This document shows, piece after piece, positions 35,057 to 64,000 of a DNA stretch of 64,000 bases. The notes beneath the pieces were generated by a model. The model was not told where the DNA came from, searched no databases, and was given only the letters and a program-made list of their open reading frames with translations. Within the stretch, counting starts at the first letter, position 1; each line of letters starts with the position of its first letter. The position numbers were made by a program, and so were the translations under genes. This DNA comes from Candidatus Polarisedimenticolaceae bacterium (lineage in GTDB: Bacteria; Pseudomonadota; Gammaproteobacteria; Chromatiales; Chromatiaceae), in NCBI GenBank assembly GCA_021647945.1, contig JAKITT010000003.1, positions 1 through 64,000 on the forward strand, read 5' to 3'.

Positions 35057-36928
35057 TTAAGAGACGATCATTCTACCGCGCATTTCTAGATGAAGTGCAT
35101 GACAGAACCATGGGCAGTAGTACCAGAAAACACCTTTCTTATCAGCTTTGAAAGTGAAAGAGACGATTTCCTGTGGAGAAACACCAACATTAATATCATG
35201 CTGAGTGATACAGATACCATGACAGAGATCTTCAACCGCATCCATATTGGCCAACACAATAGTGACGGTGTTGCCGTGCTTGATGTTAATTTTGCTCAAA
35301 GAGAACTGAGGAGCAACACTGGTCATGAAGACGTAGGTGTGGTCTCCTTTTTCGATCACTTTAGACTCAGAGCCAATTTTTACGCCCAGTTTCTTAGCCA
35401 GTGCATGCTCGTCATCAAAACGTGGATCATTCATGTCCCAAACTTTCTTAGGACGGATCAGATCACGTGAAACGATCAGCGCATCATGAGGCTCAGGAGA
35501 AGCACTGCCTTCATGAACCATTCTCATTTTGTCGCCAGAGATGTTGAACAGCTGCTCATTCTCAGGGCGGAAAGGACCAACAGGCAGGAAGCGATCTTTA
35601 GAGAACTTACAAAGAGCAATCATCCAGTTACCATCAGCATCTTTGGTCTCACTCATAGAGGCATTGATGTGACCGATCTGGTAGTGGACGTCAACTTTCT
35701 GGATTACAGGGTTTTTGCCAGCAATCGCTTTAGCAAGATTCCACTTAGTAACCTGTGAATCAAGGAAGATTGAGGTGTAAGCATTGCCTTTGTTATCAAA
35801 AGCAGTGTGCAATGGACCCAGGCCAACTTCAGGTTCTGCAATTACGCAATCACGTGGTTTGATTTTACCAGCGAATGCTGCATCAACTTTAGCCAGTTCG
35901 ATAACTGAAACAGTTGGTGACAACTTGCCAGAACAAACAGCATATTTACCAGTTGGATCGACATTAACGCCATGCGGACTCTTAGGAACTGGAATGTAGA
36001 GAGTGTACTCTGAGTTACCACGACCATCTAGAACAGGAACCTTTGAATCACCAAGGTTGATGCCTTTGCCAGCTTTGATTGCAGCTTCAATGCGCTCTAG
36101 GTTAAAAACAACCAACCAATCACGATCGTTGCCCATCATCTCTGGAAGCGTTACACCCTCTTCAGAGTTGTAACAACAAGCCATTGAGTATTTGCCTTCA
36201 TAATCAGTCGCACAGAGATCAAGGTTGCCATCAACCTGGATCTGCCAACGAACTTCCATTTTCTCGGCATCAACACAGGTGTGCAGACAGCCATACTTAG
36301 AAGGATCTTCTACGTCACGACCATCATTGATTAGCGGGATACGGAATTCAGAGTTAAGGTAAACCGCATTGATTTTGTTACGTGATGGGAAGATACCATG
36401 AGTACCCTGAGCATTAGGGATATCAATGATGCTATCAGTCACCATCATATCCAAACGGACACGAGCAAGACGCGCTTGAGCTTTGTCATTTACAAAGCCA
36501 TATTTGCCGTCGTAGGTGCCATCGGTGTATGAAAGATGGAAGTGATGGGTGTCACCTGAAAGTTTACCTTTCAGCATCTTTTTACTGACGTTGGTAGTGC
36601 CCCAACCGTAAGCAGCATCAAAGTTAAAAACAGGGATACGCTTCAGTTCACGACCAGAAGGAATACCTATAACCCGAACCTCACCAGACTGACCGCCTGA
36701 CCAGAAACCGTAGTACTCATCTAGTTCACCAGGAGCAACATGCTCTTTAGGCCCTTTACCTGAAGAAGCCTGCGCCACAGATGATGTTCCAAACGGCAGC
36801 ATTCCCATTGAAACCGCACCAGCACCAGCCAGTCCTGTTGCAGCAGTTTTAAAAAAACCGCGGCGTGATGGCTCTACTACTTCGCCAGTTATTACTTCTT
36901 CATTATGGTCGATTTTCTTATCGCTCAT
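35057..36928 (-). CDS. nosZ: nitrous oxide reductase, clade I type
   Basis: The 623-residue enzyme has a twin-arginine signal (SRRGFFKTAATGLAGAGAVS) and a seven-bladed propeller region that supplies the CuZ histidines (for example DTHHFHLSYTDG and PLHTAFDNKGNAYTS). A C-terminal cupredoxin domain has the CuA motif YCPWFCHALHLEM. TAT export and this CuA form are features of clade I NosZ. It reduces N2O to N2 in the periplasm. ATG 36928 follows GAGG. It is transcribed alone or with nosR onwards, from the FNR-type promoter at 37084-37125. Confidence 0.97.
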   Translation of the reverse strand: MSDKKIDHNEEVITGEVVEPSRRGFFKTAATGLAGAGAVSMGMLPFGTSSVAQASSGKGPKEHVAPGELDEYYGFWSGGQSGEVRVIGIPSGRELKRIPVFNFDAAYGWGTTNVSKKMLKGKLSGDTHHFHLSYTDGTYDGKYGFVNDKAQARLARVRLDMMVTDSIIDIPNAQGTHGIFPSRNKINAVYLNSEFRIPLINDGRDVEDPSKYGCLHTCVDAEKMEVRWQIQVDGNLDLCATDYEGKYSMACCYNSEEGVTLPEMMGNDRDWLVVFNLERIEAAIKAGKGINLGDSKVPVLDGRGNSEYTLYIPVPKSPHGVNVDPTGKYAVCSGKLSPTVSVIELAKVDAAFAGKIKPRDCVIAEPEVGLGPLHTAFDNKGNAYTSIFLDSQVTKWNLAKAIAGKNPVIQKVDVHYQIGHINASMSETKDADGNWMIALCKFSKDRFLPVGPFRPENEQLFNISGDKMRMVHEGSASPEPHDALIVSRDLIRPKKVWDMNDPRFDDEHALAKKLGVKIGSESKVIEKGDHTYVFMTSVAPQFSLSKINIKHGNTVTIVLANMDAVEDLCHGICITQHDINVGVSPQEIVSFTFKADKKGVFWYYCPWFCHALHLEMRGRMIVS

Positions 36929-44231: not shown

Positions 44232-46631
44232 CTAAACTCTCTTACGCTGTGAATTGACGATCAGCAAGCCGATCAGAAAGAAGAACAGGGCGAAACCTGC
44301 TGGCATGCCATAGACTTTGCCAGCATCCAACTCTGGAGGCAGCATCAACCAGTACCATGTGCTTAGAGTGTGGCGCGCACGGACTTCACCGTTACTGCCA
44401 TCCCAGTTGGCAAATGAGACGGGGATGAACTGACCTTCATCGAAATTGACATCACCACTAGCACCACCTTTACGTGAGCGGGTCATCAGCACTTGCCATT
44501 GGCCCTCTTTCCAGCCTGCGGTGCTCTTCAGGCTTCGATCCTTCAAACGTGGCTCAAGTTTATTGTTAGGGCCGGTGGCATCCAACAAAGTCGTTGACTC
44601 ACGTTTTTCAGGCTCGATGCTTCCGGCGTTCCAATACCAGATGGTGGTGTTACGCTTGGCATCGCCGTGTCTGAAGAGTGGCTTCTCAACGGGCCGCACC
44701 TCATAGGCGTTCTCTTTTGGGAACTGAATCGCCATCGCATCAGCATGCATATCGAGGTTTTCATCTTGCAGCTCGGTGAAGTAGTCGATACCCGGGCGAC
44801 TCTCGGTACGATCACCGTATGAGAGTAAGAAGGCGATATCCTTGTCGTTATAGAGCACACGCACGGTGATGGCATCATTGAGCGGTGTGAAGAGACGATC
44901 CTCTTTGATGATGTTGGGCACCATCGGCAGGGTAACCGCTGGCGCTTGCGCCCAACGCTCATCTTCCAGCGATGTTGGCAAACTACCCGTCAACTTCATG
45001 CCGGTAACAACGGGGCCATCGACAGGTTGTACGGTGGTGTCACGCAGGCTGTAGACAAAGTTGGCGATATGCCAGCGATCATCCAAACTCACTGGGTCGG
45101 TATTGCCCTCTTCTACCGCACGATGTGCTGGCATTGGGGTGCCTGGGATACCAATTGAGAGACGAGAATAGATGCTCTTGATCGTCTCATCACGCTCGCC
45201 TTCACCCTTGGCTGTCGATTGAGTCGCTCGCCACGTCCAAGGTTTAGTCAAATCTCGTGGCCAGATGCGGAAGCCCCAATCATTTTCCAGCTTTTTGCCA
45301 GAGAGAATGTTGCCGCGGCCCTCTCGGCCATGACACTCTTTACAGGATTTGAGGAAGGCTTCACGCCCCTTCTCAACCGACTCATCGGAGTAGGCGATCT
45401 GCCCCGTTAGCGGTTCATTATCAGAGACGACATTGAAGTCAGTTTTGGTGTAACGCCCCTCATCATCAAACAGATCATCATCGGCATCTTCTGGTGCCCA
45501 AGCCCAAGTGAGATCAAAGCTTTTCAGAATAGGTAGCAGACTATTGATCTGCTCATCACTCATCGCCGATTCCCAACCTGGCATGCCGGTTCCTGGCAGA
45601 CCAAACTTGATGGTGTTGAAGAGATCCTTATCCAATGGAAGCTGAGTGCCAGGTGAGGTTTTATACTTAAAGAGCGCAAGGCTAAAGTCACGCGGTTTAG
45701 GATACATGCGCTCGGCAGCAATACCATCACCCATACCAAATTCACCATGACACACTTCACAACGGAACTTATAGAGCGCCAAGCCTTTAATATTTTTACG
45801 TTTGGCTAGCACCTCATCCTTCATTCCGGTGACTATTTTTGAGACTTCAGGGTCCCAAATACGGGGCACCTGACCGTTATAGTCAAAGATAAAGGTGATC
45901 ACATTCCAGACATCATTCTCACTCAACATCTCATGCCAAACCGGCATCGCTGAGTTCCAAGGTGTGCCCTCTTTCGGTAGACCAGGGCCACCCGTGGTGA
46001 TACGCCAGAAGAGGAATGACTCCTGCAACTGCGGGATGATGGTGGGATCAAGAAAGTTGATCGGCTGTGGATTAAAACCCTCCGCGTAGTGCCCCTTGCC
46101 ATTCAGCAGATCACCGTGACAGTAGAAGCAGTTTTCATAGTAGACATCACGGCCCGCTAGTACGGCTGAATCATACTTCTGCCAAGCCGACTCTTTGTCC
46201 GTTGCCATGGTCGCTAGAATATCATCACGTATCGGGTTCTCTAGTGAACCAAGATCAAACTTTTTGTTGTAGACCTTAAGTGTTGATGGCGGTGCAGGAT
46301 GCACCTGACGCAGCTCAACTGGCGCTTCATTACTCGGCTTAACCAGACCATAAACTGTGTAACTGATGATGGCGGGGATCAGGATTAAGAAACCCCAACG
46401 AGCTACCGTTTTATCATCATCACGCAGCACGGCAAAAATGGGCTGTTTAAACTCCGCCCAACGCTCATCTTCAAACGAGTAGTAGAGCAGCACACCGATC
46501 ACGACGATGATCATGTACTGCACCAACAAGGTCAAAGGGAGCAGCGGTGGAAAGGCGTTATCAAGCACTACATAGGAGATAATAACGACCAGTATCGCCT
46601 GCCAAAACACAGGTATTTTTAAATTTTTCAC
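44232..46631 (-). CDS. membrane triheme cytochrome c with ethylbenzene-dehydrogenase-type heme domain
   Basis: The 799-residue protein has three N-terminal helices (about 8-26, 33-53 and 80-97), three cytochrome c domains with CFYCH (168-172), CEVCH (291-295) and CKECH (430-434), an ethylbenzene-dehydrogenase-gamma-like domain (about 565-760; VRVLYNDKDIAFLLSYGD, NWDGSNGEV), and a C-terminal helix (about 773-793). The GTG start overlaps the preceding stop by one base (TAGTG). It is the last gene of the operon with a bd-like subunit and a diheme cytochrome. From residue 290 on it is paralogous to the 24700-26247 protein. It probably accepts or donates electrons on the periplasmic side of a membrane complex. 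Confidence 0.85.
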   Translation of the reverse strand: MKNLKIPVFWQAILVVIISYVVLDNAFPPLLPLTLLVQYMIIVVIGVLLYYSFEDERWAEFKQPIFAVLRDDDKTVARWGFLILIPAIISYTVYGLVKPSNEAPVELRQVHPAPPSTLKVYNKKFDLGSLENPIRDDILATMATDKESAWQKYDSAVLAGRDVYYENCFYCHGDLLNGKGHYAEGFNPQPINFLDPTIIPQLQESFLFWRITTGGPGLPKEGTPWNSAMPVWHEMLSENDVWNVITFIFDYNGQVPRIWDPEVSKIVTGMKDEVLAKRKNIKGLALYKFRCEVCHGEFGMGDGIAAERMYPKPRDFSLALFKYKTSPGTQLPLDKDLFNTIKFGLPGTGMPGWESAMSDEQINSLLPILKSFDLTWAWAPEDADDDLFDDEGRYTKTDFNVVSDNEPLTGQIAYSDESVEKGREAFLKSCKECHGREGRGNILSGKKLENDWGFRIWPRDLTKPWTWRATQSTAKGEGERDETIKSIYSRLSIGIPGTPMPAHRAVEEGNTDPVSLDDRWHIANFVYSLRDTTVQPVDGPVVTGMKLTGSLPTSLEDERWAQAPAVTLPMVPNIIKEDRLFTPLNDAITVRVLYNDKDIAFLLSYGDRTESRPGIDYFTELQDENLDMHADAMAIQFPKENAYEVRPVEKPLFRHGDAKRNTTIWYWNAGSIEPEKRESTTLLDATGPNNKLEPRLKDRSLKSTAGWKEGQWQVLMTRSRKGGASGDVNFDEGQFIPVSFANWDGSNGEVRARHTLSTWYWLMLPPELDAGKVYGMPAGFALFFFLIGLLIVNSQRKRV

Positions 46632-47443
46632 TATCTCTGCTCCAGCAACAGGTCGATGATCATCTTCAACTCCTTCACGGTCATCTTCTCCGCAAAGTCA
46701 GCCGGCATAACGCCTGGAGTAAAGCCTTCAGCAATCGCTGCGGCTGGATCGGTAATGCTTAGGCTGATCTGCTCGGCGCTCTGGCGTGAGCCGATGCCAT
46801 CTAATGCAGGGCCAACAGAAGACTCGGTACCCAACATGGAGTGACACGCCTGACAGCCATACTTTTTGATCGCATCTTCTGCCGTAGCAGCCGGTGCTGG
46901 TGCACTACCTGCTGCGGGCGCAGCCTCAACAGGTGGAGCCTCTGTTGGTAGTTCAACCGTTACATCATTGCCATCCTTAAACTGTAAGAAGGCGATGATG
47001 GCATTGATCTCAATCTCAGAGAGTTCAATCGGCGCTTTGTTAACTGCGGGCATCGGTGATTCGGTATCATTGCTGCCTTTTTTACCGAAGCTGGCCACCA
47101 CGAAGGCACCCGGGTCTACCATCGACTCATGTAGGTACTCTTCGATATTGGTCGCTTTGCCTTTATAACGCTCATCCTCCAAGTGTTTTTCTGCTGCTCC
47201 ACCAACATTCATCACCAATAGATCAGGCGCACGCCCCATTGCGTTATGACAAAGAGTACAGGTTCCCTTTCCACTAAATAGCGCCTCGCCCAGAGCGATA
47301 TAACTCTCCATCGTCAATGCACCGAGATCAACCTTCTGCTCAACCGGCGCCTCACCCTCTACCTGTGGCAGCAGGTTAGCTACCAGAGTGAAGATGAGGA
47401 TCATGCCAAGGCTGAAGCCTAGTGTTTTGCCCAGTACATTCAT
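46631..47443 (-). CDS. diheme cytochrome c, membrane-anchored
   Basis: The 270-residue protein has an N-terminal anchor (about 8-26), a first heme motif CTLCH (62-66) and a second CQACH (197-201) joined by an Ala/Pro/Glu-rich linker (about 168-188). Distal Met candidates are in SPMPAVNK and GVMPADFAEKM. It overlaps the upstream bd-like gene by four bases (ATGA) and the downstream triheme gene by one, showing tight translational coupling. It is the likely redox partner of both. Confidence 0.88.
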   Translation of the reverse strand: MNVLGKTLGFSLGMILIFTLVANLLPQVEGEAPVEQKVDLGALTMESYIALGEALFSGKGTCTLCHNAMGRAPDLLVMNVGGAAEKHLEDERYKGKATNIEEYLHESMVDPGAFVVASFGKKGSNDTESPMPAVNKAPIELSEIEINAIIAFLQFKDGNDVTVELPTEAPPVEAAPAAGSAPAPAATAEDAIKKYGCQACHSMLGTESSVGPALDGIGSRQSAEQISLSITDPAAAIAEGFTPGVMPADFAEKMTVKELKMIIDLLLEQR

Positions 47444-49359
47444 GCTGCACCCCCATCAACACTGGCGACTGGTTTCGCCTGTTTGGTGGCACTTAGATTG
47501 GCAATCCAGAACATAAACAGCACCATAACCAGGAACAACACGGTAACAAGGGTGATCATATTACCGGCGTAGCCAATGGTGGGGATGAAGTTGTCAGGTG
47601 AGTTATCTTTCATCACCGTATAGACATGCCAATGGGTCTTCACTGAAGAGCGGACATAACCCATCAAACCCATCAACCAAGTGAAAGCGACCGGCAGTGC
47701 AAAGAGTGCATACTGCGCCCGATCTGGCACCTTACCCCAGTAGGAGGGCAGTGTTTTAGCCCCTTTAAATAGGAAGGCATCCAGCGTGATACCCACCACA
47801 ATCACCACCAGTGTTGAGCAGACCTGCATCACTGATGAACCCACTTTGTAGACGGTGTTGGTGAAGTAACCGTAGTAGACACCGGCAAAGATCACATTAG
47901 CCACCGCGACAACATAGATCGCCACCATTAACGCATTGCCAAAGGGTGCCCAGGAGACCGTAGCCACCTTGTCTGATCGGCGATAGAGCTGAAACGACAA
48001 GAAGGTGACAATCAGCATCAAATTCACCGCGATATTCTTCGCTGGCATGATGCCCAAAGGCCCGAGTAGGTGGTGATGACTGCCACCCAACGCCGCAATC
48101 TCAGTTGCCGATAGGATCAACGTATGCGGTGTCACCCAGACCAAGAAACAGGTCACCAAGACAAAAGCGATCACTTTGATCAGCGGTTTGTAGCGCTCCG
48201 AGCCTTCGGTACGCGACATACCTGCCCAGAGATAGTAGTTGGCTGCCAATAGAATGGTGCCGATCAGCACCGCCTGAACGATAAACAACCACGCCAAAAT
48301 ACCCCCCATCGCGGTGATACCCATCTGCTGCGAGTAGGCGTAGATCTCTGCCATCAGCCAGTAACCGGCAAACGGCAACGGAAGGAATGAGAGGATGGCG
48401 ATAAAGTTGGAGGTGTAACCCATCCAGTCATAGTGAGCCCGCTCTTCTGGGTCACGTGTACTGAGAAATTTAAAGGCGGCATAAGCCCCCACCACCGCAC
48501 CACCGAAGGCGATATTGGCGATAAAACGATGCAGATTGATCGGGTTCCAGAGCGGCCCCTTCATCACCTCCCAGATATTGCCGACCACCTGCCCCACTTC
48601 ATTAACCCCAGAGGGAGCCATCATAAAGGTGGCCCAAGAGTTAGCCATCACCATGATGGTCATACCCGCCGCATTCAGCAGCAGGCCCAGAGTAAGGTGC
48701 AACCATTTCAGGTTGCCGTAACGCATCGCATTCCAACCATAATAATAGGTATAGAGGAAAAAGCTCTCAAAGAAGAAGAGCGATGCATAGACCAACATCT
48801 GCGCGCCAAAGACGTGCGTCATATAGGCCATAAGGTCGGGGTAGAGCGTAAACAGCGCTATCGCAAGTGATCCACCAATGATCGCCGTGATCGAAAACCC
48901 GGTCAGGCTGATCTTCATGAACTCTTGCGCCATGCTGTCATAACGCTCATCCCCCGTGCTGACGCCAACCAGCTCAATAACGAGAACAAAGAGTGGGATC
49001 GCTAACACCAGCGCCCCAAAAAATAGATGTAACTGGGCTAAAACCCAGACGATTGCTCGGCTACTCACACCGACATCGGGGTAGTCACTCCGACTCGGTT
49101 TCTTCATCTGGTAAGGGACTACCTCTTCAGCTTCACTCGCCTCAGCTTCAACAGCTGGCTCGAAGCTATCATCCCCCTCAACATGGACACGCCCCATCGG
49201 ACTGATGCGCTCTTCCAGTGTATCAGACACCCCAGCATCAGCAGCGATTGAGGCACCAGGAATAACCACTCCAATGATAAGTAGCGTCAGTAAAAATGTG
49301 CCAAAAAATGCTGAGAACGAACGAATGCGGCCCAGCTTGCTCACTCTTTTAAAACTCAT
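47440..49359 (-). CDS. divergent cytochrome bd-type oxidase subunit I-like protein
   Basis: The 639-residue protein has an N-terminal helix (about 17-40), an acidic linker, and about thirteen further TM helices. Residues 101-290 resemble the start of CydA: His111 (in LAQLHLFFGAL) fits the heme d/high-spin ligand, FFFES with Glu198 fits CydA Glu107, and His277 (NPINLHRFIAN) fits the b558 ligand. The position of CydA Glu99 has no Glu, and the quinol-binding Q-loop (GRQPW) is not found. There is no CydB gene. CydA-like proteins with c-type partners are known in Nitrospira and others. Function, substrate and cofactors here are unknown. Confidence 0.72.
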   Translation of the reverse strand: MSFKRVSKLGRIRSFSAFFGTFLLTLLIIGVVIPGASIAADAGVSDTLEERISPMGRVHVEGDDSFEPAVEAEASEAEEVVPYQMKKPSRSDYPDVGVSSRAIVWVLAQLHLFFGALVLAIPLFVLVIELVGVSTGDERYDSMAQEFMKISLTGFSITAIIGGSLAIALFTLYPDLMAYMTHVFGAQMLVYASLFFFESFFLYTYYYGWNAMRYGNLKWLHLTLGLLLNAAGMTIMVMANSWATFMMAPSGVNEVGQVVGNIWEVMKGPLWNPINLHRFIANIAFGGAVVGAYAAFKFLSTRDPEERAHYDWMGYTSNFIAILSFLPLPFAGYWLMAEIYAYSQQMGITAMGGILAWLFIVQAVLIGTILLAANYYLWAGMSRTEGSERYKPLIKVIAFVLVTCFLVWVTPHTLILSATEIAALGGSHHHLLGPLGIMPAKNIAVNLMLIVTFLSFQLYRRSDKVATVSWAPFGNALMVAIYVVAVANVIFAGVYYGYFTNTVYKVGSSVMQVCSTLVVIVVGITLDAFLFKGAKTLPSYWGKVPDRAQYALFALPVAFTWLMGLMGYVRSSVKTHWHVYTVMKDNSPDNFIPTIGYAGNMITLVTVLFLVMVLFMFWIANLSATKQAKPVASVDGGAA

Positions 49360-49375
49360 TGCCGATATTCCCCAT

Positions 49376-49525
49376 TCAACCTGCCGGTGTCAGATCCCAA
49401 TTAAGTGGAAGCCCCTGGATATTCATGATGAAGTGATCCAAGCCGTAAAAAACAGCCAGTGCGATGCCAAATGCGACAAATGCGAGCACTACAGATCCAG
49501 CACCCCCCGATTTTTCATTATTCAT
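49376..49525 (-). CDS. 49-residue single-span membrane protein of the bd-like operon
   Basis: ATG 49525 to TGA 49376 encodes 49 residues: a short polar N-terminus (MNNEKSGGAGS), one TM helix VVLAFVAFGIALAVFYGL, and a periplasmic or cytoplasmic tail DHFIMNIQGLPLNWDLTPAG. GGGGGATCG lies upstream as a possible ribosome binding site. It sits 16 bases before the bd-like gene. Small single-span subunits (CydX, CcoQ types) stabilise oxidases; this one is not a recognisable homolog, and that role is inferred from position. Confidence 0.75.
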   Translation of the reverse strand: MNNEKSGGAGSVVLAFVAFGIALAVFYGLDHFIMNIQGLPLNWDLTPAG

Positions 49526-49539
49526 CTAACGATCCCCCA

Positions 49540-49695
49540 CTAACCGTGATGGACGACAACGCCGCCCGAATAGATCAACAACCAATAGAAGAAGCTCAAA
49601 ATTGCCAGCAACGCAGCCCAAAATAGCTTTGGCCCCCAAGTTGTCGACCCAGAATCAGTCGTTGTTGGTTGCTCTTCGTTGGACTCTTGGTTCAT
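49540..49695 (-). CDS. 51-residue single-span membrane protein, first gene of the bd-like operon
   Basis: ATG 49695 follows AAGAGGAGT, a strong ribosome binding site, and runs to TAG 49540, encoding 51 residues. It has an acidic, Thr/Ser-rich head (MNQESNEEQPTTTDSGSTTW) and one TM helix (LFWAALLAILSFFYWLLIY) ending in GGVVVHHG, whose paired His might bind a cofactor. Fourteen bases separate it from the next small gene. It opens the 49695-44232 operon. I do not recognise a family. Confidence 0.78.
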   Translation of the reverse strand: MNQESNEEQPTTTDSGSTTWGPKLFWAALLAILSFFYWLLIYSGGVVVHHG

Positions 49696-50953: not shown

Positions 50954-50979
50954 GTACGCCTGCATGATGACAGGCGTAC
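50954..50979 (+). promoter_or_regulatory. hairpin immediately before the czcC ribosome binding site
   Basis: GTACGCCTG (50954-50962), eight-base loop, CAGGCGTAC (50971-50979) is a perfect 9-bp stem that ends three bases before AAGGAG (50982-50987) of czcC. It lies in the 246-base gap between the His-rich gene and czcC and could modulate translation or mark processing between the two genes. Confidence 0.45.
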
Positions 50980-50993
50980 ACAAGGAGTTTGTA

Positions 50994-52301
50994 ATGTGGG
51001 TATCTTTTTCCATGCCGCGACAAACGGCTACGCGGTCGGTTGCATTTTGTTTGGCACTGCTGAGTACAACGGCTGCTACCTATGCAGGTGCAGCCCCAGA
51101 TTCAAAGACGAACCAGCGCACGATCAGTTTGCATGAAGCGGTTATTAAAACCATCGAACACAACCCGACCCTACGGGCTTTCGATTATCAATTGAAAGCC
51201 CAGCAAGGGCGAGTGCAACAGGCGGGGTTGGCCCCCAGCCCTGAATTAAGCTTCGAGCTGGAAGATGTTTTAGGTACCGGCAATAACAAAGGGGTAGATA
51301 GCGCGCAAGCGACCCTCAGTATTGGTTGGGTGCTTGAGCGTGGAATCCGCCAGCGTTACGTTAATGCCGCACGCGCAGGGGCATCTTTAATTGAAGTTGA
51401 GGCGGATATTAAACAGTTAGATGCGGCGGCAGAAACCGCCCGCCTTTATCTTGTCAGCTTGACTTTTCAAGCACGCGAGGCAAATGCGGATAAAACCATT
51501 CAGCTTGCAGAAGAGACGATCAAGTCAGTACGCAAGCGAGTGAAAGCGGGCAAGACACCTGAAGCGGAGTTGTCCAGAGCGCAAGCAGAACTGGCGCGCA
51601 GAAAACTAGAGCGAGAAGACATTGAGCATGAGTTGCTCTCTGCCAACCGTCGCTTAGCTGCCCAATGGGGGGAAACAAGGGTGACCTTTGCGCGAGTTGA
51701 GGGTGACATCACACTGCTGCCTCAGGTGGCATCGTTTGAAACACTCAAATCACAGTTACCGCAAAACCCAGAGTTTGCCCGATTGCAGTCGGCTCAGTTG
51801 TTAAATAAAGAGAAGTTACAGCTCGCACTGGCACAAGACAAACCCAACTGGCGGGTCAATGCGGGGATTCGTCATACCAACAATGGAAATGACCAAGCTT
51901 TTGTTGCAGGCATCACTATTCCCTTTGGCAAACGCACACGTAACCCTGGCCGTATTGCTGAAGCCCGAGCGAACCTGGCAAAAATAAGCGGTGACGAACA
52001 CGCAGCACGCATTCACATCGAAACCGCACTCTATGTGAGGCATGAGAAGTTACAACACAGTCTGCATGTCATTGAGACGGTACGTGGCGAGATTATCCCA
52101 CCACTTGAGCAAGCACTCACCGAGACCCGTCGCGCCTACAACCTTGGGCGCTATAGCTATCTGGAGCTGCGTAGTGTTCAGGCGGAATTGCTGGATGCGC
52201 ATAATGCGTTGGTTGAAGCCAGCATTGATGCACATCGCAACATCATTGAAATTGAACGATTGACCGGCGTGCGCATTGCGCAACCGAAGACAACATTATG
52301 A
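50994..52301 (+). CDS. czcC: CzcC-like outer membrane factor (TolC family)
   Basis: Using ATG 50994 with AAGGAG six bases upstream, the 435-residue protein has a Sec signal (to about AGAAP) and two repeats of the outer membrane efflux domain, seen as ISLHEAVIKTIEHNPTLRAF near the N-terminus and a long coiled-coil segment (AEETIKSVRKRVKAGKTPEA). CzcC proteins form the trimeric exit duct of RND heavy-metal pumps. Its end overlaps the adaptor gene start by four bases (ATGA). Confidence 0.88.
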   Translation: MWVSFSMPRQTATRSVAFCLALLSTTAATYAGAAPDSKTNQRTISLHEAVIKTIEHNPTLRAFDYQLKAQQGRVQQAGLAPSPELSFELEDVLGTGNNKGVDSAQATLSIGWVLERGIRQRYVNAARAGASLIEVEADIKQLDAAAETARLYLVSLTFQAREANADKTIQLAEETIKSVRKRVKAGKTPEAELSRAQAELARRKLEREDIEHELLSANRRLAAQWGETRVTFARVEGDITLLPQVASFETLKSQLPQNPEFARLQSAQLLNKEKLQLALAQDKPNWRVNAGIRHTNNGNDQAFVAGITIPFGKRTRNPGRIAEARANLAKISGDEHAARIHIETALYVRHEKLQHSLHVIETVRGEIIPPLEQALTETRRAYNLGRYSYLELRSVQAELLDAHNALVEASIDAHRNIIEIERLTGVRIAQPKTTL

Positions 52302-53626
52302 GGCTCCCAATGAACAACACAATGAAATACGCTCTCGCACATCCATGTGCTTCACTGCATAAGGCCATCCGTGACCAAAATTTCTCACAGCGAATTTGGT
52401 TACCCCTACTGTTAGCCACATTACTATCCGCTTGTGGTGGTACAGACTCAGGGCAAGCCATGTCATCCAAAGACGCTCACGGTGAAGTGGCTGAAGCCGA
52501 ACCGGAAAAAGGCCCGCATAACGGTCGACTATTAATAGATGGTGATTTTACACTTGAACTGGCTATTTTTGAGACCGGTGTACCACCTGAGTTTCGTGCC
52601 TGGGCCATCAAAAATGGTCAGGCACTAACCCCAGACGAGGTGAATCTTGAGATCAATTTAACCCGCTTAGGTGGCACAATTGATGAGATTAAATTCAAAC
52701 CACAAGGCGATGCACTGCGTGGCGATATGGTTATTTATGAACCCCATTCATTTATCGTCACCATCAATGCAAGCTATGCAGGTTCGACCCATACCTGGGA
52801 ATACGACAACTTTGAAGGTCGAACCAAGATTGAAACAGCGGTCGCCGAAGCTTTGGAAATAGGTACCTCAATTGCCGAATCGGTGGTGATACAAAGAACC
52901 ATCCCCGTGTATGGCCAAATCGCCGCCAACAGTGAGCGCATGCGCAGAATCACAGCCCGTTTTGATGGCACGATTAAATCTGTCACAGTCTCTCAAGGTG
53001 AGCGCGTACGCAAAGGCCAAACACTGGCCACCGTTGAAAGTAACGAAAGCCTGCAACTGATTACCATCACCGCACCGATCAGCGGTGTGATCACCTTACG
53101 TAATGCCAATGTTGGTGAACAGACAGATGGCCGTCAACTCTTCACCATCATGGACAGTCGCTCGGTGTGGGCGGAACTGTCAGTCTTTCCGACGGATCTC
53201 GCACAAGTCAGCATCGGTGCGCCAGTCACCATCACCGATACCACCAGTGGTCATACGGTTAAAGGCAAGGTCTCGCGCATTAATCTGCTGGCCGAGACCG
53301 ACCAATCGGTCAGCGTTCGCGTGGTGCTAGACAATAAAAAAGGTCAGCTGCGCCCCGGTCGTCATATCAGTGCCCACATCACCGTGGGAGAACACACAGC
53401 AGCCTTAGCGGTAAAGCGATCCGGCCTGCAAGCCTTTAGAGACTTTACCGTGGTCTACGCGCAAATCGGTGAAGAGTACGAGGTACGGATGCTTGACCTC
53501 GGGCTACAAGCTGGTGAATGGGCCGAGGTGCTGGGCGGTTTAGAACCCGGTACGCACTATGTGAGTGAAAACAGCTACGTCATCAAAGCCGACATTGAAA
53601 AATCCGGTGCATCGCATGACCACTAA
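52298..53626 (+). CDS. czcB: CzcB-like RND efflux adaptor
   Basis: The 442-residue adaptor has a lipobox-type signal ending LLSACGG, an N-terminal domain with GPHNGRLLIDGDFTLELAIF (as in CzcB proteins with extra metal-binding domains), a barrel-sandwich hybrid domain (RFDGTIKSVTVSQGERVRKG) and beta-barrel segments ending with LDLGLQAGEWAEVLGGLEPG. A terminal SHDH may bind metal. It bridges CzcA and CzcC in the periplasm. Part of this gene (53157 to about 53450) recurs as a decayed copy at 59012-59250. Confidence 0.92.
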   Translation: MRLPMNNTMKYALAHPCASLHKAIRDQNFSQRIWLPLLLATLLSACGGTDSGQAMSSKDAHGEVAEAEPEKGPHNGRLLIDGDFTLELAIFETGVPPEFRAWAIKNGQALTPDEVNLEINLTRLGGTIDEIKFKPQGDALRGDMVIYEPHSFIVTINASYAGSTHTWEYDNFEGRTKIETAVAEALEIGTSIAESVVIQRTIPVYGQIAANSERMRRITARFDGTIKSVTVSQGERVRKGQTLATVESNESLQLITITAPISGVITLRNANVGEQTDGRQLFTIMDSRSVWAELSVFPTDLAQVSIGAPVTITDTTSGHTVKGKVSRINLLAETDQSVSVRVVLDNKKGQLRPGRHISAHITVGEHTAALAVKRSGLQAFRDFTVVYAQIGEEYEVRMLDLGLQAGEWAEVLGGLEPGTHYVSENSYVIKADIEKSGASHDH

Positions 53627-53662
53627 TTCACTCATTGGCTCGACCAAAGAAGGCGATGCATT

Positions 53663-56600
53663 ATGTTAGAAGCAATTATTAAGTTTTCCCTCGCACGCCG
53701 AGGGTTAGTGATGACACTTGTCCTGATGGTGATGGGATTAGGCGCGTGGAAATTTACCCAACTGCCGATTGACGCGGTACCTGATATTACCAATGTACAG
53801 GTTGTCATTAACACGGAAGCGCCTGGCTATACCCCATTGGAAGCCGAACAGCGGGTGAGTTTTCCGGTAGAGACCGCCATGACCGGCCTGCCAAAACTGG
53901 ATTATACCCGTTCCGTCTCACGTTATGGTTTGTCTCAAGTGACCGTGGTGTTTGAGGAAGGCACGGATATCTATTTTGCCCGCCAGTTAGTCAGCGAACG
54001 TCTGAGTACGGCCAAAGCGGATATCCCGCCGACCTTAGAGCCAACCCTTGGCCCGATTGCCACGGGACTGGGTGAGATCTTTATGTTTACCGTTGATGCG
54101 GAGCCGGGCGCACAAAACAGCGATGGTAGCTTGATCACCCCAATGGATCTGCGCTCAACCCACGACTGGATTATTCGTCCACAGTTAATGCGCGTTGCCG
54201 GTGTGGCGGAGATCAATCCGATTGGTGGTTTCAAAAAAGAGATTTTGGTAGCTCCCGAGCCTGCCAAGTTACTGGCTTACCAAATTAGCTACAACGAAGT
54301 GGTCAACGCCATAGAAAACAATAACAGCAACCGCGGCGTTGGTTTCATCGAACACAACGGCGCGCAATGGTTGATGCGTGTTCCGGGTCAAGCCAACACG
54401 CTGGATGATTTGGCTAATATCGTGATCCGCCAGCACCAGAGCATTCCCCTTCGCATCAAAGATGTGGCCACTGTTAGCCTCGGCAAAGAGTTGCGCTCAG
54501 GCGCGGCCACGCAGAATGGCCGCGAGGTGGTGATGAGCACGGTCTTCATGTTGACTGGTGAAAACAGCCGTGCCGTGGCCAACGATGTGGCGCTCAAACT
54601 GGAAGAGATTAAAAGCAGCCTACCCGACGGCATCACCGTTACGGCGGTATACAACCGAACGACGCTGGTGGATAAAACTCTAGAGACGGTACAAAAAAAC
54701 CTATTAGAAGGCGCACTGCTGGTTATTGTAGTGCTGTTTCTATTTTTGGGTAATGTGCGAGCCGCCATACTCACTGCGATGGTGATTCCCATTGCGATGT
54801 TGATGACCATCACCGGTATGGTGCAGACAAAAACCAGTGCTAATCTCATGAGTCTGGGGGCGTTGGATTTTGGTTTGATCATCGATGGCGCGGTGATCAT
54901 TGTTGAAAACTGTATTCGCCGTTTAAGTCAAAATTATCGTGAAGAAGGCTTATCACTTAACGAGCGTTTGGCGATTGTTTTCGAGGCAACCCGTGAGGTG
55001 ATTCGTCCGGCACTGTTTGGTGTCTTTATCATTACCGCTGTCTACATTCCTATCTTTGCCCTCAGTGGCGTGGAAGGAAAGATGTTTCACCCTATGGCGA
55101 TCACCGTGATCATTGCCCTGGTCAGTGCAATGATTTTATCCATCACCTTCATTCCCGCCGGTGTGGCACTGCTATTTAAAAAACCGATCAAAGAGAAACA
55201 AAGCAAGGTTGTGCAGGCGACTCTCGCTATCTACAAACCTGTTTTATCGTTTTCCCTGCGGTTTAGATGGAGCGTTGTTGTTGGCGCGCTGCTGTTGGTG
55301 GTTAGCTCAGGTTTATTGATCCCCAAGCTCGGTTCTGAATTTGTACCCAACCTGGATGAAGGGGATATTGCCATGCACGCCTTACGCATTCCTGGCACCT
55401 CGCTCAGCGAAGCGATTCACCTGCAAAAAGCCCTAGAAGCCGAAATTAAAAATCTACCGGAAGTTGAACGCGTGTTTGCCAAAATCGGTACCGCTGAAGT
55501 GGCCACCGATGCGGTGCCACCCAGTGTGGCAGATAATTTCATTATTCTTAAGCCACGTGCTGAATGGCCCGACCCCAGCAAAACCAAAGCACAATTTGTA
55601 GCGGAATTAGAAAGCCTGGTTACACCAATCCCTGGCAATCGTTATGAGTTTTTGCAACCCATTCAAATGCGTTTCAATGAGCTGATATCCGGGGTGCGTG
55701 CGGAAGTGGCCATTAAAGTCTTTGGTGATGATTTTGACCAGCTTATCGCGCTCGGTAGCCAGATAGAAAAGGTCGTTGGCAATGTGCCAGGGGCAGCCGA
55801 TGTCGCCGTCGAACAAACTACTGGTTTACCGGTGATGACGATTGAACCCAAGCGTGAAGCGATGGCACGTTATGGCTTAAGCATCGCTCAGTTACAGAAT
55901 CTGCTCTCAACCGCATTGGGGGGAACGGTTGCCAGCCAACTGTATGAAGGGGATAGGCGTTCCGATATCGTGGTGCGATTAGCCGAGCACCTACGCACCG
56001 ATGTCGATGCTTTAGCTGATCTTCCCGTCATGCTAGCGGAGGGTTTGTATGTCCCCTTAAAAGAGGTCGCTGATCTTCAGTTAGTCATAGGCTATAGCCA
56101 GGTGCATCGAGAAAATGGTAAACGCCGTGTGGTGGTTGCCGCCAACGTGCGTGGACGTGATCTTGGCTCCTTTGTACAAGATGTTCAGCGGGCGATTAAA
56201 GCGAATGTTGATGTACCAGCGGGCTATTGGGTGGAATACGGCGGCACGTATCAGAAGCTTCAGTCGGCCACGCAACGTCTCTCCATTGTCGTTCCGATCA
56301 CATTAGCCTTAGTCATTGGCCTACTCATTATGGCGTTGGGTTCATTCAAAGATGCCGCCATCATTTTCTCAGGCGTTCCATTGGCGCTCACTGGTGGCAT
56401 TGTTGCGTTGTTATTGCGAGATATCCCCTTTTCCATCTCCGCCGCTGTTGGCTTTATCGCCCTTACAGGCATTGCAGTGTTGAATGGCCTAGTGATGATC
56501 TCATTCATTCGCGATCTGCGTGTGCATGGCCAAGCACTGCATGAGGCGATTATTGAAGGGGCTTTAACGCGCTTGCGGCCTGTTTTAATGACTGCATTAG

Positions 56601-56773
56601 TTGCCGCACTGGGTTTTATTCCCATGGCGCTGAATACAGGCATCGGCTCAGAAGTGCAGCGCCCGCTAGCGACTGTTGTCATTGGTGGGATTATCTCATC
56701 TACTTTACTCACGCTTGTTGTGTTGCCGGCATTGTATCGGTTAGTGCATGGACGAGCAGTAAAAACAGTATGA
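53663..56773 (+). CDS. czcA: CzcA-like heavy-metal RND efflux pump
   Basis: The 1036-residue pump has the RND layout of twelve TM helices and two large periplasmic loops. The TM4 motif reads DFGLIIDGAVIIVEN, the HME1 pattern (Asp-Phe-Gly...Asp-Gly-Ala...Glu-Asn) associated with Co, Zn, Cd or Ni export rather than Cu/Ag. It uses the proton gradient to pump divalent metals through CzcB and CzcC out of the cell. Its stop codon lies directly at a copy of a transposon-type terminal repeat (56771-56788), so the natural C-terminus may have been altered by an insertion. Confidence 0.95.
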   Translation: MLEAIIKFSLARRGLVMTLVLMVMGLGAWKFTQLPIDAVPDITNVQVVINTEAPGYTPLEAEQRVSFPVETAMTGLPKLDYTRSVSRYGLSQVTVVFEEGTDIYFARQLVSERLSTAKADIPPTLEPTLGPIATGLGEIFMFTVDAEPGAQNSDGSLITPMDLRSTHDWIIRPQLMRVAGVAEINPIGGFKKEILVAPEPAKLLAYQISYNEVVNAIENNNSNRGVGFIEHNGAQWLMRVPGQANTLDDLANIVIRQHQSIPLRIKDVATVSLGKELRSGAATQNGREVVMSTVFMLTGENSRAVANDVALKLEEIKSSLPDGITVTAVYNRTTLVDKTLETVQKNLLEGALLVIVVLFLFLGNVRAAILTAMVIPIAMLMTITGMVQTKTSANLMSLGALDFGLIIDGAVIIVENCIRRLSQNYREEGLSLNERLAIVFEATREVIRPALFGVFIITAVYIPIFALSGVEGKMFHPMAITVIIALVSAMILSITFIPAGVALLFKKPIKEKQSKVVQATLAIYKPVLSFSLRFRWSVVVGALLLVVSSGLLIPKLGSEFVPNLDEGDIAMHALRIPGTSLSEAIHLQKALEAEIKNLPEVERVFAKIGTAEVATDAVPPSVADNFIILKPRAEWPDPSKTKAQFVAELESLVTPIPGNRYEFLQPIQMRFNELISGVRAEVAIKVFGDDFDQLIALGSQIEKVVGNVPGAADVAVEQTTGLPVMTIEPKREAMARYGLSIAQLQNLLSTALGGTVASQLYEGDRRSDIVVRLAEHLRTDVDALADLPVMLAEGLYVPLKEVADLQLVIGYSQVHRENGKRRVVVAANVRGRDLGSFVQDVQRAIKANVDVPAGYWVEYGGTYQKLQSATQRLSIVVPITLALVIGLLIMALGSFKDAAIIFSGVPLALTGGIVALLLRDIPFSISAAVGFIALTGIAVLNGLVMISFIRDLRVHGQALHEAIIEGALTRLRPVLMTALVAALGFIPMALNTGIGSEVQRPLATVVIGGIISSTLLTLVVLPALYRLVHGRAVKTV

Positions 56774-57277: not shown

Positions 57278-58417
57278 ATGTTATTAAAATCAAAACTCAC
57301 TTTTCTGCTGACAAGCATGCTGTTACTAATTATCATGCCTCAGTTCGGCTACGCCCACGGCATGTCCGATGCTGAAAAACAGCTCATCATAGAAGGGGGG
57401 AATCTGCGCTACATCTGGATTGGCGCGACCCATATGTTGTCAGGCTATGACCATTTGCTGTTTGTCTTTGGCATTATCTTTTTTCTCACACGTTTCAAAG
57501 ATATTGTTAAATACATTACGGCATTCACGCTTGGCCACAGTGTCACGCTGATCTTTGCCACCTTTAATGCGGTTCAAGTCAATTATTTTTTAATCGATGC
57601 CATCATTGCATTAAGCGTCTGTTATATCGCTTTTTCTAATCTGGGTGGTTTTAAAAAATACCTGAACGTCAACCCACCCAACATGTTGATGATGATTACC
57701 AGTCTGGGCCTCATTCATGGTCTGGGACTATCAACACGGCTTCAGCAACTGCCGTTGAGTGAAGACCAGTTACTGATGAACATTATCTCTTTTAATGTGG
57801 GTATCGAGATAGGACAAATTAGTGCGCTGGCGTTGATGCTACTGGTTATTACCGCTTTTCGGAAAAGTCATGCTTTTGCGACCTTTAGCTTGATTGCAAA
57901 CTACTTTTTGATTGTGGCGGGTGCGTATCTTTTTCTTATTCAGATGCACGGTTATGACCATAACACTCATCCCCAAGAATTTATGGTTGCGCCCCCCATT
58001 ACCGAGCAAGTTGCAAAAAGCCAACAACACGCTCAGCGGCAAGATACGACCAGCATCGTCATACCCGCTAGAGGTGATAAGGAGTATAAATTTCACTTCG
58101 CACAAGGTGCAACGCTTGAATACACCTGGCAAACGGACGGTGCGGCACTCTTTTTTGATTTTCATGGTGAACCAGACGGCGATACAACCGGGTATTTCAA
58201 AAGCTTTGAGAAGAGTACCGAGAGCCAATCTAGTGGTTCGTTAACTACCTCCTTTACAGGCACACATGGTTGGTACTGGAAAAACAGCACTTCATCCCCC
58301 GTGACCATCACCTTAAAAACCAATGGTGAATACCAACGCTTAGATTTAAGTAAGCGTGCTGAACAGCCAACAGCTACACCTAAATTAAAAACGACAACCC
58401 ACGATACAATTGACTAA
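57278..58417 (+). CDS. HupE/UreJ-family membrane protein with C-terminal periplasmic domain
   Basis: After a signal peptide the protein has six to seven TM helices with the HupE/UreJ signature IGATHMLSGYDHLLFVFGII and FTLGHSVTLIFA, then LGLIHGLGLSTRL with His residues that could carry Ni or Co. The C-terminal 140 residues (about 240-379) are a soluble domain with beta-type segments (YTWQTDGAALFFDFHGEPDG, TGTHGWYWKNSTSSPVTITL). HupE proteins transport nickel or cobalt. Next to a Zn/Co/Ni efflux pump it may move the same metals or act as a metal-linked sensor. Confidence 0.82.
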   Translation: MLLKSKLTFLLTSMLLLIIMPQFGYAHGMSDAEKQLIIEGGNLRYIWIGATHMLSGYDHLLFVFGIIFFLTRFKDIVKYITAFTLGHSVTLIFATFNAVQVNYFLIDAIIALSVCYIAFSNLGGFKKYLNVNPPNMLMMITSLGLIHGLGLSTRLQQLPLSEDQLLMNIISFNVGIEIGQISALALMLLVITAFRKSHAFATFSLIANYFLIVAGAYLFLIQMHGYDHNTHPQEFMVAPPITEQVAKSQQHAQRQDTTSIVIPARGDKEYKFHFAQGATLEYTWQTDGAALFFDFHGEPDGDTTGYFKSFEKSTESQSSGSLTTSFTGTHGWYWKNSTSSPVTITLKTNGEYQRLDLSKRAEQPTATPKLKTTTHDTID

Positions 58418-60054: not shown

Positions 60055-60372
60055 TTAGGCCCTTTTTTGTAAATGATGAAAATCTTGTATTAAGTTAAGT
60101 TCATTCTCTTCAGTGGCCTGTGTCTTAAAAAGATCCCACCGTACCTGCAAGTTAAGCCAAAAGTCTGCAGACATTCCGAAGAATCTTGCCAGACGAAGTG
60201 CTGTACTTGGTGTAACGCCACGTTTTCTATTAACGAGTTCATTAACACGTTGATAAGGAACATGGATTGCATCTGCAAGCTCACGCTGGCTTATATTCAT
60301 TGGAACAAGAAATTCTTCACGTAACATCTCACCCGGATGCGTTGGTTCTCTATTTGTTGGAATTCGTACCAT
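60055..60372 (-). CDS. higA: HigA-type antitoxin (XRE family)
   Basis: The 105-residue protein has HPGEMLREEFLVPMNISQRE, ADAIHVPYQRVNELVNRKRG and ALRLARFFGMSADFWLNLQ, the HigA/VapI helix-turn-helix pattern. It binds and neutralises the HigB mRNA interferase and represses the operon. It starts nine bases after the toxin stop; toxin-first order is typical for higBA. The stop codon lies within GCCTAAC (60060-60054 on the minus strand), a sequence that is also an integron core-site consensus. Confidence 0.9.
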   Translation of the reverse strand: MVRIPTNREPTHPGEMLREEFLVPMNISQRELADAIHVPYQRVNELVNRKRGVTPSTALRLARFFGMSADFWLNLQVRWDLFKTQATEENELNLIQDFHHLQKRA

Positions 60373-60381
60373 GATATGCCT

Positions 60382-60675
60382 CTAATGATAATCTGTTATT
60401 TCCACATTGAGTGGGCCTGATTCACTCCACCTAAAACAGATACGATATTGCTCGTTTATACGAATACTAAATTCTGTTTTTCTATCTCCAGATAAACTCT
60501 CAAGTCTATTGCCTGGAGGTATTTTAAGTTCTTTGAGTGATTTAACCGAATCAAGTTGATCAAGTTTTCTTGCCGTAATTCGCCAAAGTGTTTGTGGGCA
60601 GGTCTTACGGGCTGCCTTTGAGTTGACGCCATTAAATATATCTTCAGTGGCTGAGTCTTTAAACGAAATGATCAT
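60382..60675 (-). CDS. higB: HigB-type toxin (RelE/HigB mRNA interferase)
   Basis: The 97-residue protein has ARKLDQLDSVKSLKELKIPP, GNRLESLSGDRKTEFSIRIN and EQYRICFRW with a DYH ending, the HigB/RelE layout in which basic residues, the terminal His and Tyr cut mRNA on the ribosome. It is the first gene of the higBA pair, in an AT-rich context with a probable promoter and operator around TGTTAACATGATAGC near 60675-60690. Confidence 0.9.
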   Translation of the reverse strand: MIISFKDSATEDIFNGVNSKAARKTCPQTLWRITARKLDQLDSVKSLKELKIPPGNRLESLSGDRKTEFSIRINEQYRICFRWSESGPLNVEITDYH

Positions 60676-61364
60676 GTTAACATGATAGCACGGAGTGCAT
60701 GTTATTCAATGGGTATGAGTATCGTGGCCTAACGAGGATGTAGAAAAACCCAATCTTGGCCAGAGAACTCCAGCCGTTCATTACTCAGCAGGCTTCTAGT
60801 CACTGACCGCCCGCATAGCGGGAGGCTTGAAAAAAGCCCCTAAAAGGGGCTATTTGTTACGTGCTCATGCTTAGGCAAAATAGCCTCCTAACGGGTTGGG
60901 AACAGATATAACCACAGAGAACACAGAGAAAAAAGTGTGTTGGATTCTCTGTGGTTTATTCTTGTTGGCCGTTACCATGAGGCCACATGCACGCTGGAAC
61001 GGCAGAGCCTTTTCAAGTCTCACCGGCAAAGCCGGTGGTTTACCTCAATTTAAATTAATCGACGCCATTGAACACTCTGAGCAGTCAATTTGGTTCACAT
61101 TCGACTTATTGAATGATATGTTCAAATCTACACGAACCTCATTCCATAAAAAACCGGGATATAGCTCACTAACCATCACAAGCATTCAATTGAGCTCGCT
61201 CTATTAAGCCCTCTCTAAGCGATCAAACCAGCCGTTAACCTGCTGACTAGATAAGACTAAAAGCAGATTCAGACCATGGCAGCCACTGCATAAAAGCATC
61301 ACCAGAAGCACACTTGGTATGCTTTCTGCATTAGCTTGCTCAAACCTCATTTGGAAATTTGTAT
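60676..61364. other. gene-free interval with repeats and a minus-strand terminator
   Basis: Contents: GCCTAAC at 60727-60733, a CCCGC/GCGGG hairpin at 60810-60822, the terminator hairpin at 60835-60851, a CCACAGAGAACACAGAG-type repeat (about 60911-60927) that pairs with TTCTCTGTGG at about 60946-60955, and ACCGGCAAAGCCGGT near 61020. A 103-codon frame at 60896-61207 crosses these repeats and is not credible. The last 150 bases should hold the promoter of the HEAT-repeat gene. Confidence 0.5.
60835..60851 (-). terminator. intrinsic terminator, minus strand
   Basis: AGCCCC (60835-60840), loop TAAAA, GGGGCT (60846-60851), followed on the minus strand by TTTTTTC. This is a good intrinsic terminator reading leftwards, but no minus-strand gene precedes it, so it is probably left over from a lost gene or part of a repeat. 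Confidence 0.7.
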
Positions 61365-63892: not shown

Positions 63893-64000
63893 ATGAAGAA
63901 ACTGCTCATTAGCACCACGATTGCTGGCCTCTGCGCAATGCCGCTGATTGGTCAGGCTGCGGCCTATAAAGAGGTTTCAGTCAGCAACGGCGGCAACATT
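63893..64000 (+). CDS. secreted protein, N-terminal part, cut by window edge
   Basis: AGGAGA precedes ATG 63893. The visible 36 codons begin with a Sec signal peptide (MKKLLISTTIAGLCAMPLIG, cleavage near QAAA) and continue AYKEVSVSNGGNI. The mature start, with a Ser-Asn-Gly-Gly turn, is like beta-sandwich periplasmic proteins, but too little remains to name a family. It follows the HEAT-repeat gene by 36 bases. Confidence 0.7.
   Translation, partial: MKKLLISTTIAGLCAMPLIGQAAAYKEVSVSNGGNI

Follow-up and report, generated by a model that had tools for sequence, protein, structure and literature searches.

A five-gene operon for a predicted membrane electron-transfer complex with a cytochrome bd-like subunit in a sulfur-oxidizing-type marine bacterium

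Introduction

Gene sets that combine a bd-like membrane protein with two c-type cytochromes and an EB_dh/alt-NxrC protein are known from Nitrospira moscoviensis, from Nitrospina and from anammox bacteria, and reverse electron flow or anchoring of NXR has already been proposed as their role (PMC6606698, PMC3578206, PMC6423088). In the strict anaerobe Kuenenia, the corresponding set (kustd1706-1713) sits beside NXR (PMC6423088), and the bd-like protein of Nitrospina has 14 helices, with helices replacing the quinol loop (PMC3578206). The potential of the anammox diheme protein Kustd1711 has been measured at about +350 mV (PMC11791136). Two further papers, citing Murali et al. 2021, class the OR-N proteins of the bd superfamily as O2 reductases that putatively oxidise cytochrome c (PMC10839748, PMC12342949). 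The role of the bd-like/alt-NxrC sets has been a standing question from the time when the genomes of Nitrospira, Kuenenia and Nitrospina were described. Here, we describe a five-gene operon for a predicted membrane electron-transfer complex of this kind in a sulfur-oxidizing-type marine bacterium. It lies within a stretch of 64,000 nucleotides, hereafter the window.

The five-gene operon

The operon occupies the minus strand and consists of the following genes:
49540-49695, minus strand: S1, a single-span protein of 51 residues and the first gene of the operon (open reading frame; dN/dS 0.20; kept in 19 of 19 other fetched loci)
49376-49525, minus strand: S2, a single-span protein of 49 residues (open reading frame; dN/dS 0.11; kept in 19 of 19 other fetched loci)
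47440-49359, minus strand: CydA-like membrane protein of 639 residues (PF01654, E 2.6e-23; AlphaFold2 model with pLDDT 80; CydA fold, Z 34 over residues 90-630)
46631-47443, minus strand: diheme c-type cytochrome of 270 residues (two CXXCH motifs, CTLCH and CQACH; best PDB match 7zs0, E 6.6e-16)
44232-46631, minus strand: triheme c/EB_dh (NxrC/EbdC-type) fusion of 799 residues, with a GTG start and membrane anchored (PF13442/PF00034 three times; PF09459, 1.4e-17)

Gaps of 14 and 16 bases are followed by an ATGA and then by a TAGTG overlap, exactly as in the original prediction. The two single-span proteins of about 50 residues that it had proposed are both under purifying selection, and its diheme and triheme cytochromes were borne out by counts of two and three haem motifs and by the EB_dh match. 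Measured against the same-genus ortholog in genome G122, selection is purifying on all five genes (dN/dS 0.04-0.20), S1 and S2 included. A gene-order search across genomes found the five genes syntenic and in unchanged order in all 19 other genomes with fetched loci, a degree of conservation and selection that is far beyond chance. FNR-type sites were sought upstream of the operon, and in most genomes shuffled sequence matched at least as well.

The CydA-like subunit

The Cyt_bd_oxida_I family (PF01654) matches only residues 100-354 of the CydA-like protein, its first half. Hydropathy gives 14 spans, as previously counted, and the first of these (residues 15-33) has low confidence in the AlphaFold2 model, which was built from 60 sequences, and may be a signal peptide. 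Residues 90-630 of the model align with subunit I of ten bd structures (Z 31-35, 344-360 residues, ~16% identity). The next fold matches, NrfD-like membrane subunits of alternative complex III, fall well below (Z 18-22), the shared elements being helical bundles common to both. The quinol-binding Q-loop is absent, and the TM6-TM7 region of the model consists of predicted extra helices. In CydA, His19 is a ligand of the high-spin haem and Glu107 belongs to a proton path. Both E. coli residues are kept, as H111 and E198, in a supported N-terminal alignment that also places an invariant Tyr (Y191) at the Glu99 position in 124/124. An invariant His (H277) lies four residues upstream of the His186 position; His186, Met393 and Glu445 themselves seem lost, according to a tentative alignment without HHalign support, and the equivalents of Met393 and Glu445 are tentative because the C-terminal third could not be aligned by profile to canonical CydA. 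The residue and helix pattern agrees with that of the Nitrospina bd-like protein (PMC3578206). The protein belongs to a bd-like family without proven function rather than to one with an established single-subunit role. No CydB was found in the operon or its neighbours, and the CydA-like protein is the only CydA in the genome, which is 94.6% complete. Within the predicted complex, the CydA-like subunit would be a haem-b-type membrane core, with S1 and S2 as probable stabilising subunits.

The diheme and triheme cytochromes

The best PDB match of the diheme subunit, 7zs0, is Kustd1711, as identified through the paper on that protein (PMC11791136), and marks the subunit as a relative of the anammox cytochrome. 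The triheme protein carries the motifs CFYCH, CEVCH and CKECH, with Cytochrome_CBB3 and Cytochrom_C domains found three times. Its residues 280-529 match 6h5l_B (4e-32), a diheme subunit that we take to be the partner of a Kuenenia hydroxylamine-oxidoreductase-like enzyme, and residues 559-757 match EbdC (2ivf_C, 3.5e-5), with the EbdC/NxrC haem-b fold. Met and Lys are the haem-b ligands of EbdC. Since Gln636 and His754 (His or Met) occupy these positions instead, the EB_dh domain is only a candidate for haem b binding. Together, the diheme and triheme/EB_dh proteins could act as a high-potential periplasmic wire. An EB_dh gene near nirS in Pseudomonas stutzeri (PMC5554334) was also considered and judged only a distant parallel.

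Distribution and phylogeny

Close CydA-like homologs (E <= 2e-59) occur in 33 of 195 genomes of the order, the window's own genome included, and a phylum sample of 398 genomes yielded only three more carriers. When one genome per species was scanned, more than 500 relatives appeared, the best 80 of which span several proteobacterial classes, Nitrospirota, Nitrospinota and Myxococcota; none were found on viral contigs. Many carriers belong to OMZ or microaerophilic lineages. Among Nitrospirota, bd-like proteins with 38-62% identity over most of the length (E to 1e-235) are present in 39 of 118 genomes. Nitrospira-type genomes have several copies, one of them in the order bd-like, two cytochromes, EB_dh, and the identity to Nitrospira-type copies is 46-50%. 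The fused triheme form, together with radical SAM/PPO genes, also occurs in two Nitrospirota genomes.

In a quick tree, whose root is arbitrary and in which long branches meet, the window protein falls in a clade of gammaproteobacterial sulfur oxidizers (support 100), near Thiodiazotropha and Sedimenticola, and this clade groups with a 610-aa type from alpha-, beta-, zeta- and deltaproteobacteria. The 720-aa alphaproteobacterial tandem partners form another clade, and the Nitrospira paralogs lie outside the window's group. In alphaproteobacterial loci (L055:21-20052), a run of 15 genes holds all maturation genes together with two CydA-like paralogs of 721 and 607 aa, and each paralog is accompanied by a separate diheme c, monoheme c and EB_dh gene. 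Deltaproteobacterial neighbours turned out to be hydrogenase maturation genes with no obvious link.

A divergent partner operon

A second operon, absent from the original prediction, starts at 61359 and extends beyond the right end of the window. Its genes, the later ones placed on the contig continuation, and those that separate the two operons are:
61359-63857, plus strand: HEAT-repeat protein, first gene of the partner operon (41.9% to the conserved HEAT neighbour that adjoins the CydA operon in relatives)
63893-64000, plus strand: start of a cupredoxin/CarboxypepD_reg-like gene that continues to contig position 64627
past the window, after the cupredoxin-like gene: UspA-PCP_red gene
contig 67130-69163, past the window: radical SAM-PCP_red gene
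contig 69380-70789, past the window: PPO-like gene
past the window, after the PPO-like gene: membrane protein, then histidine kinase, then NtrC-type regulator
50964-56773, between the operons: CzcC/B/A-like RND heavy-metal efflux genes
57278-58417, between the operons: HupE-like gene
about 60055-60675, between the operons: HigBA-like toxin-antitoxin pair

In relatives, the CydA operon faces a divergent operon of HEAT, cupredoxin-like, UspA-PCP_red, radical SAM-PCP_red and PPO-like genes. The two are adjacent in G122, and here ~11.5 kb of unrelated genes lie between them. Among haem-synthesis models, NirJ2 and AhbD are closest to the radical SAM protein, which does not reach the cut-off of either, and the PPO-like protein exceeds the protoporphyrinogen oxidase cut-off. 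PCP_red domains are known from the protochlorophyllide reductase BchB; beside the module they occur three times in a UspA protein and in a radical SAM enzyme (L042:11399-13678, L027:16896-18935).

Within the order, radical SAM and UspA-PCP_red genes are present in all 33 CydA-like-positive genomes and in 3 of 162 negative ones (Fisher 3e-34, a value that, like the one given below for IdrA, overstates independence because genomes of one order are related and partly share ancestry), and the PPO-like gene in 32/33 vs. 4/162. Two of the three exceptions lie at contig edges. The third (G154) is a truncated, decaying remnant, in which radical SAM, UspA and PPO genes are kept beside truncated neighbours and the CydA operon is lost. 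HemJ is absent from this genome, so that general haem synthesis may be a further task of the cluster PPO here; of the 162 order-mates without a CydA-like gene, however, 158 lack this PPO. With its AhbD/NirJ2-like radical SAM enzyme, UspA-PCP_red protein, PPO-like flavoenzyme and copper-type protein, the partner operon probably makes or inserts a special haem. This maturation operon is the strongest new fact of our analysis, and judging from gene content the complex seems to need haem chemistry of its own. A dedicated haem pathway, if real, would be new for the bd superfamily.

Iodate reductase-like and other neighbours

Downstream of the operon, many relatives carry two CCP/MauG-type dihaem proteins, a Tat-type Rieske protein and an AioA-family molybdoenzyme (TIGR02693, 392 bits; cut-off 359). 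This is the gene set by which iodate reductase is recognised, with Sedimenticola thiotaurini among the listed organisms (PMC8692401). An IdrA-like gene is present in 30 of 33 CydA-like-positive vs. 6 of 162 negative genomes (5e-26), and in 19 genomes it shares a contig with the operon and lies near it. The genome studied here has a full set in the order P-P-B-A on another contig (G000:C59:9497-15218), whose two CCP, Rieske and AioA-like proteins constitute a putative iodate reductase IdrABP1P2. Four genomes (G043, G051, G076, G109) have Idr without the module, and three (G107, G156, G178) have the module without Idr. In Mariprofundus/Gallionellales, a clade III lactonase-type N2O reductase (L-NosZ) adjoins the bd-like module and UspA-PCP_red (L045:34-1809, L065:15303-17135).

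Respiratory genes of the host include one in the window:
35057-36928, minus strand: Tat-type nitrous oxide reductase (NosZ-like)

The genome also encodes cNOR and a cbb3 oxidase, and since these accompany the NosZ-like gene, the host is probably a facultative denitrifier.

Discussion

The original prediction of a membrane complex holds insofar as the operon is conserved, selected and syntenic, joins a CydA-like protein to periplasmic haem partners and has no CydB. Its description as undescribed does not, since the same gene set is known in Nitrospira moscoviensis, Nitrospina and anammox bacteria (PMC6606698, PMC3578206, PMC6423088). What is new is the variant in which a single fused triheme-EB_dh protein occurs together with the small membrane proteins S1 and S2, the divergent partner operon that co-occurs with the CydA-like gene (33/33 vs. 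3/162), and a similar link to iodate-reductase-like IdrABP1P2 genes (30/33 vs. 6/162), often adjacent, and elsewhere to clade III N2O reductase.

We suggest that the five proteins form one membrane-bound electron-transfer complex. The reading that we tentatively prefer is an electron conduit between the quinone pool and periplasmic cytochromes, alternative complex III-like, which would serve high-potential periplasmic enzymes. It draws on the whole-chain CydA fold with alternative complex III subunits as the next fold, on the five-gene synteny, on the Kustd1711-related diheme and NxrC/EbdC-type EB_dh proteins, and on the co-occurrence of the module with the partner operon and the IdrA-like gene. 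Here, electrons would run outward, from quinol to periplasmic reductases, and of the candidate acceptors the iodate-reductase-like IdrABP1P2 is the best. The homologous complex of nitrite oxidizers and anammox bacteria would work for NXR and might run in the opposite direction. Against the conduit stand the replacement of the Q-loop by helices, which leaves no recognisable quinone site in the CydA-like protein, the location of Idr and module on different contigs in this genome together with the genomes that have only one of them, and the classification of such proteins among O2 reductases in the OR-N literature (PMC10839748, PMC12342949).

That classification points to the main alternative, a CydA-superfamily O2 reductase of OR-N type. 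This would be a high-affinity terminal oxidase that receives its electrons from periplasmic cytochromes c, and we also regard it as a genuine possibility. The CydA fold, the retention of His19 and Glu107, the 46-50% identity to Nitrospira-type copies and the many OMZ or microaerophilic carriers are consistent with an oxidase. However, two CydA-type subunits (CydAA') make up the proposed OR-N oxidase, whereas this operon lacks CydB and its genome lacks a second CydA; Glu99 is invariably Tyr, and Glu445 and His186/Met393 seem lost in the tentative alignment. Furthermore, the cluster is found in the strict anaerobe Kuenenia, this genome already has cbb3, and in the quick tree the window clade includes neither the Nitrospira paralogs nor the 720-aa partners. 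The two probabilities are close. We infer a conduit rather than a plain O2 reductase because high-potential periplasmic enzymes are the neighbours, strict anaerobes carry the module, Glu99 is invariantly lost, and the lone CydA shares its genome with a cbb3 oxidase.

A broader form of the conduit, about which we are rather doubtful, is a general-purpose module: a bd-fold quinone/cytochrome c oxidoreductase, with a special haem supplied by its own radical SAM/PPO enzymes, that plugs iodate reductase, clade III N2O reductase and NXR into the membrane.

It is improbable that the operon has no quinone chemistry of its own and only anchors one particular molybdoenzyme in the membrane and relays electrons for it, the enzyme being Idr-like here and NXR elsewhere. 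The resemblance of the EB_dh domain to the NxrC/EbdC gamma subunit, the tight Idr association and the NXR-anchor proposal for alt_NxrC_2 (PMC6606698) are in its favor, but an anchor leaves the full CydA-type membrane core and the dedicated haem-maturation genes unexplained, L-NosZ among the neighbours is not a molybdoenzyme, and this genome has no NXR-type alpha over the cut-off. A reductase or detoxifier of NO or another small molecule on the bd fold is very improbable, for although carriers are often denitrifiers (here with cNOR in the genome and NosZ in the window) and active-site residues are altered, the module showed no direct association with NO genes, and cNOR is already present.

In sulfur oxidizers, the complex occurs in the absence of NXR and is linked to haem-modifying and iodate-reductase-like genes, which sets it apart from nitrite oxidation, and cultivable hosts with concrete partners make it testable in bacteria that do not oxidize nitrite.

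Comparison with known systems

From gene order and size, we infer that the window operon matches the 'bd-like_3' cluster. It shares with the bd-like_3/alt_NxrC_2 cluster a CydA-like protein, a Kustd1711-type diheme, further c cytochromes, EB_dh, a UspA neighbour and helices in place of the quinol loop. In contrast to that cluster, one fused triheme-EB_dh protein replaces separate genes, S1 and S2 are added, a radical SAM/PPO operon accompanies the module, and NXR is missing; in this genome no type II DMSO-reductase alpha (NXR-type) exceeds the cut-off, the best being a NarG-size frame of 1254 aa with 178 bits vs. 985. The OR-N families similarly have CydA without CydB and c-type cytochromes as presumed partners, but their proposed CydAA' oxidase is a pair, whereas this genome has one CydA. 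With the canonical CydAB quinol oxidase, the subunit I fold, His19 and Glu107 are shared; the window operon has no CydB, the Q-loop is missing, Glu99 is replaced by Tyr, and the partners are c-type. Alternative complex III likewise couples a membrane helical bundle to multihaem cytochromes, and its function is alike by proposal, yet the two are not gene-by-gene homologous, the window operon having neither an iron-sulfur ActB nor a pentahaem ActA. In known iodate reducers, the gene surroundings are poorly conserved and cytochrome c551 is the donor (PMC8692401). The iodate reductase IdrABP1P2 is a separate enzyme from the complex described here, and in this order it is a frequent neighbour and co-occurring partner.
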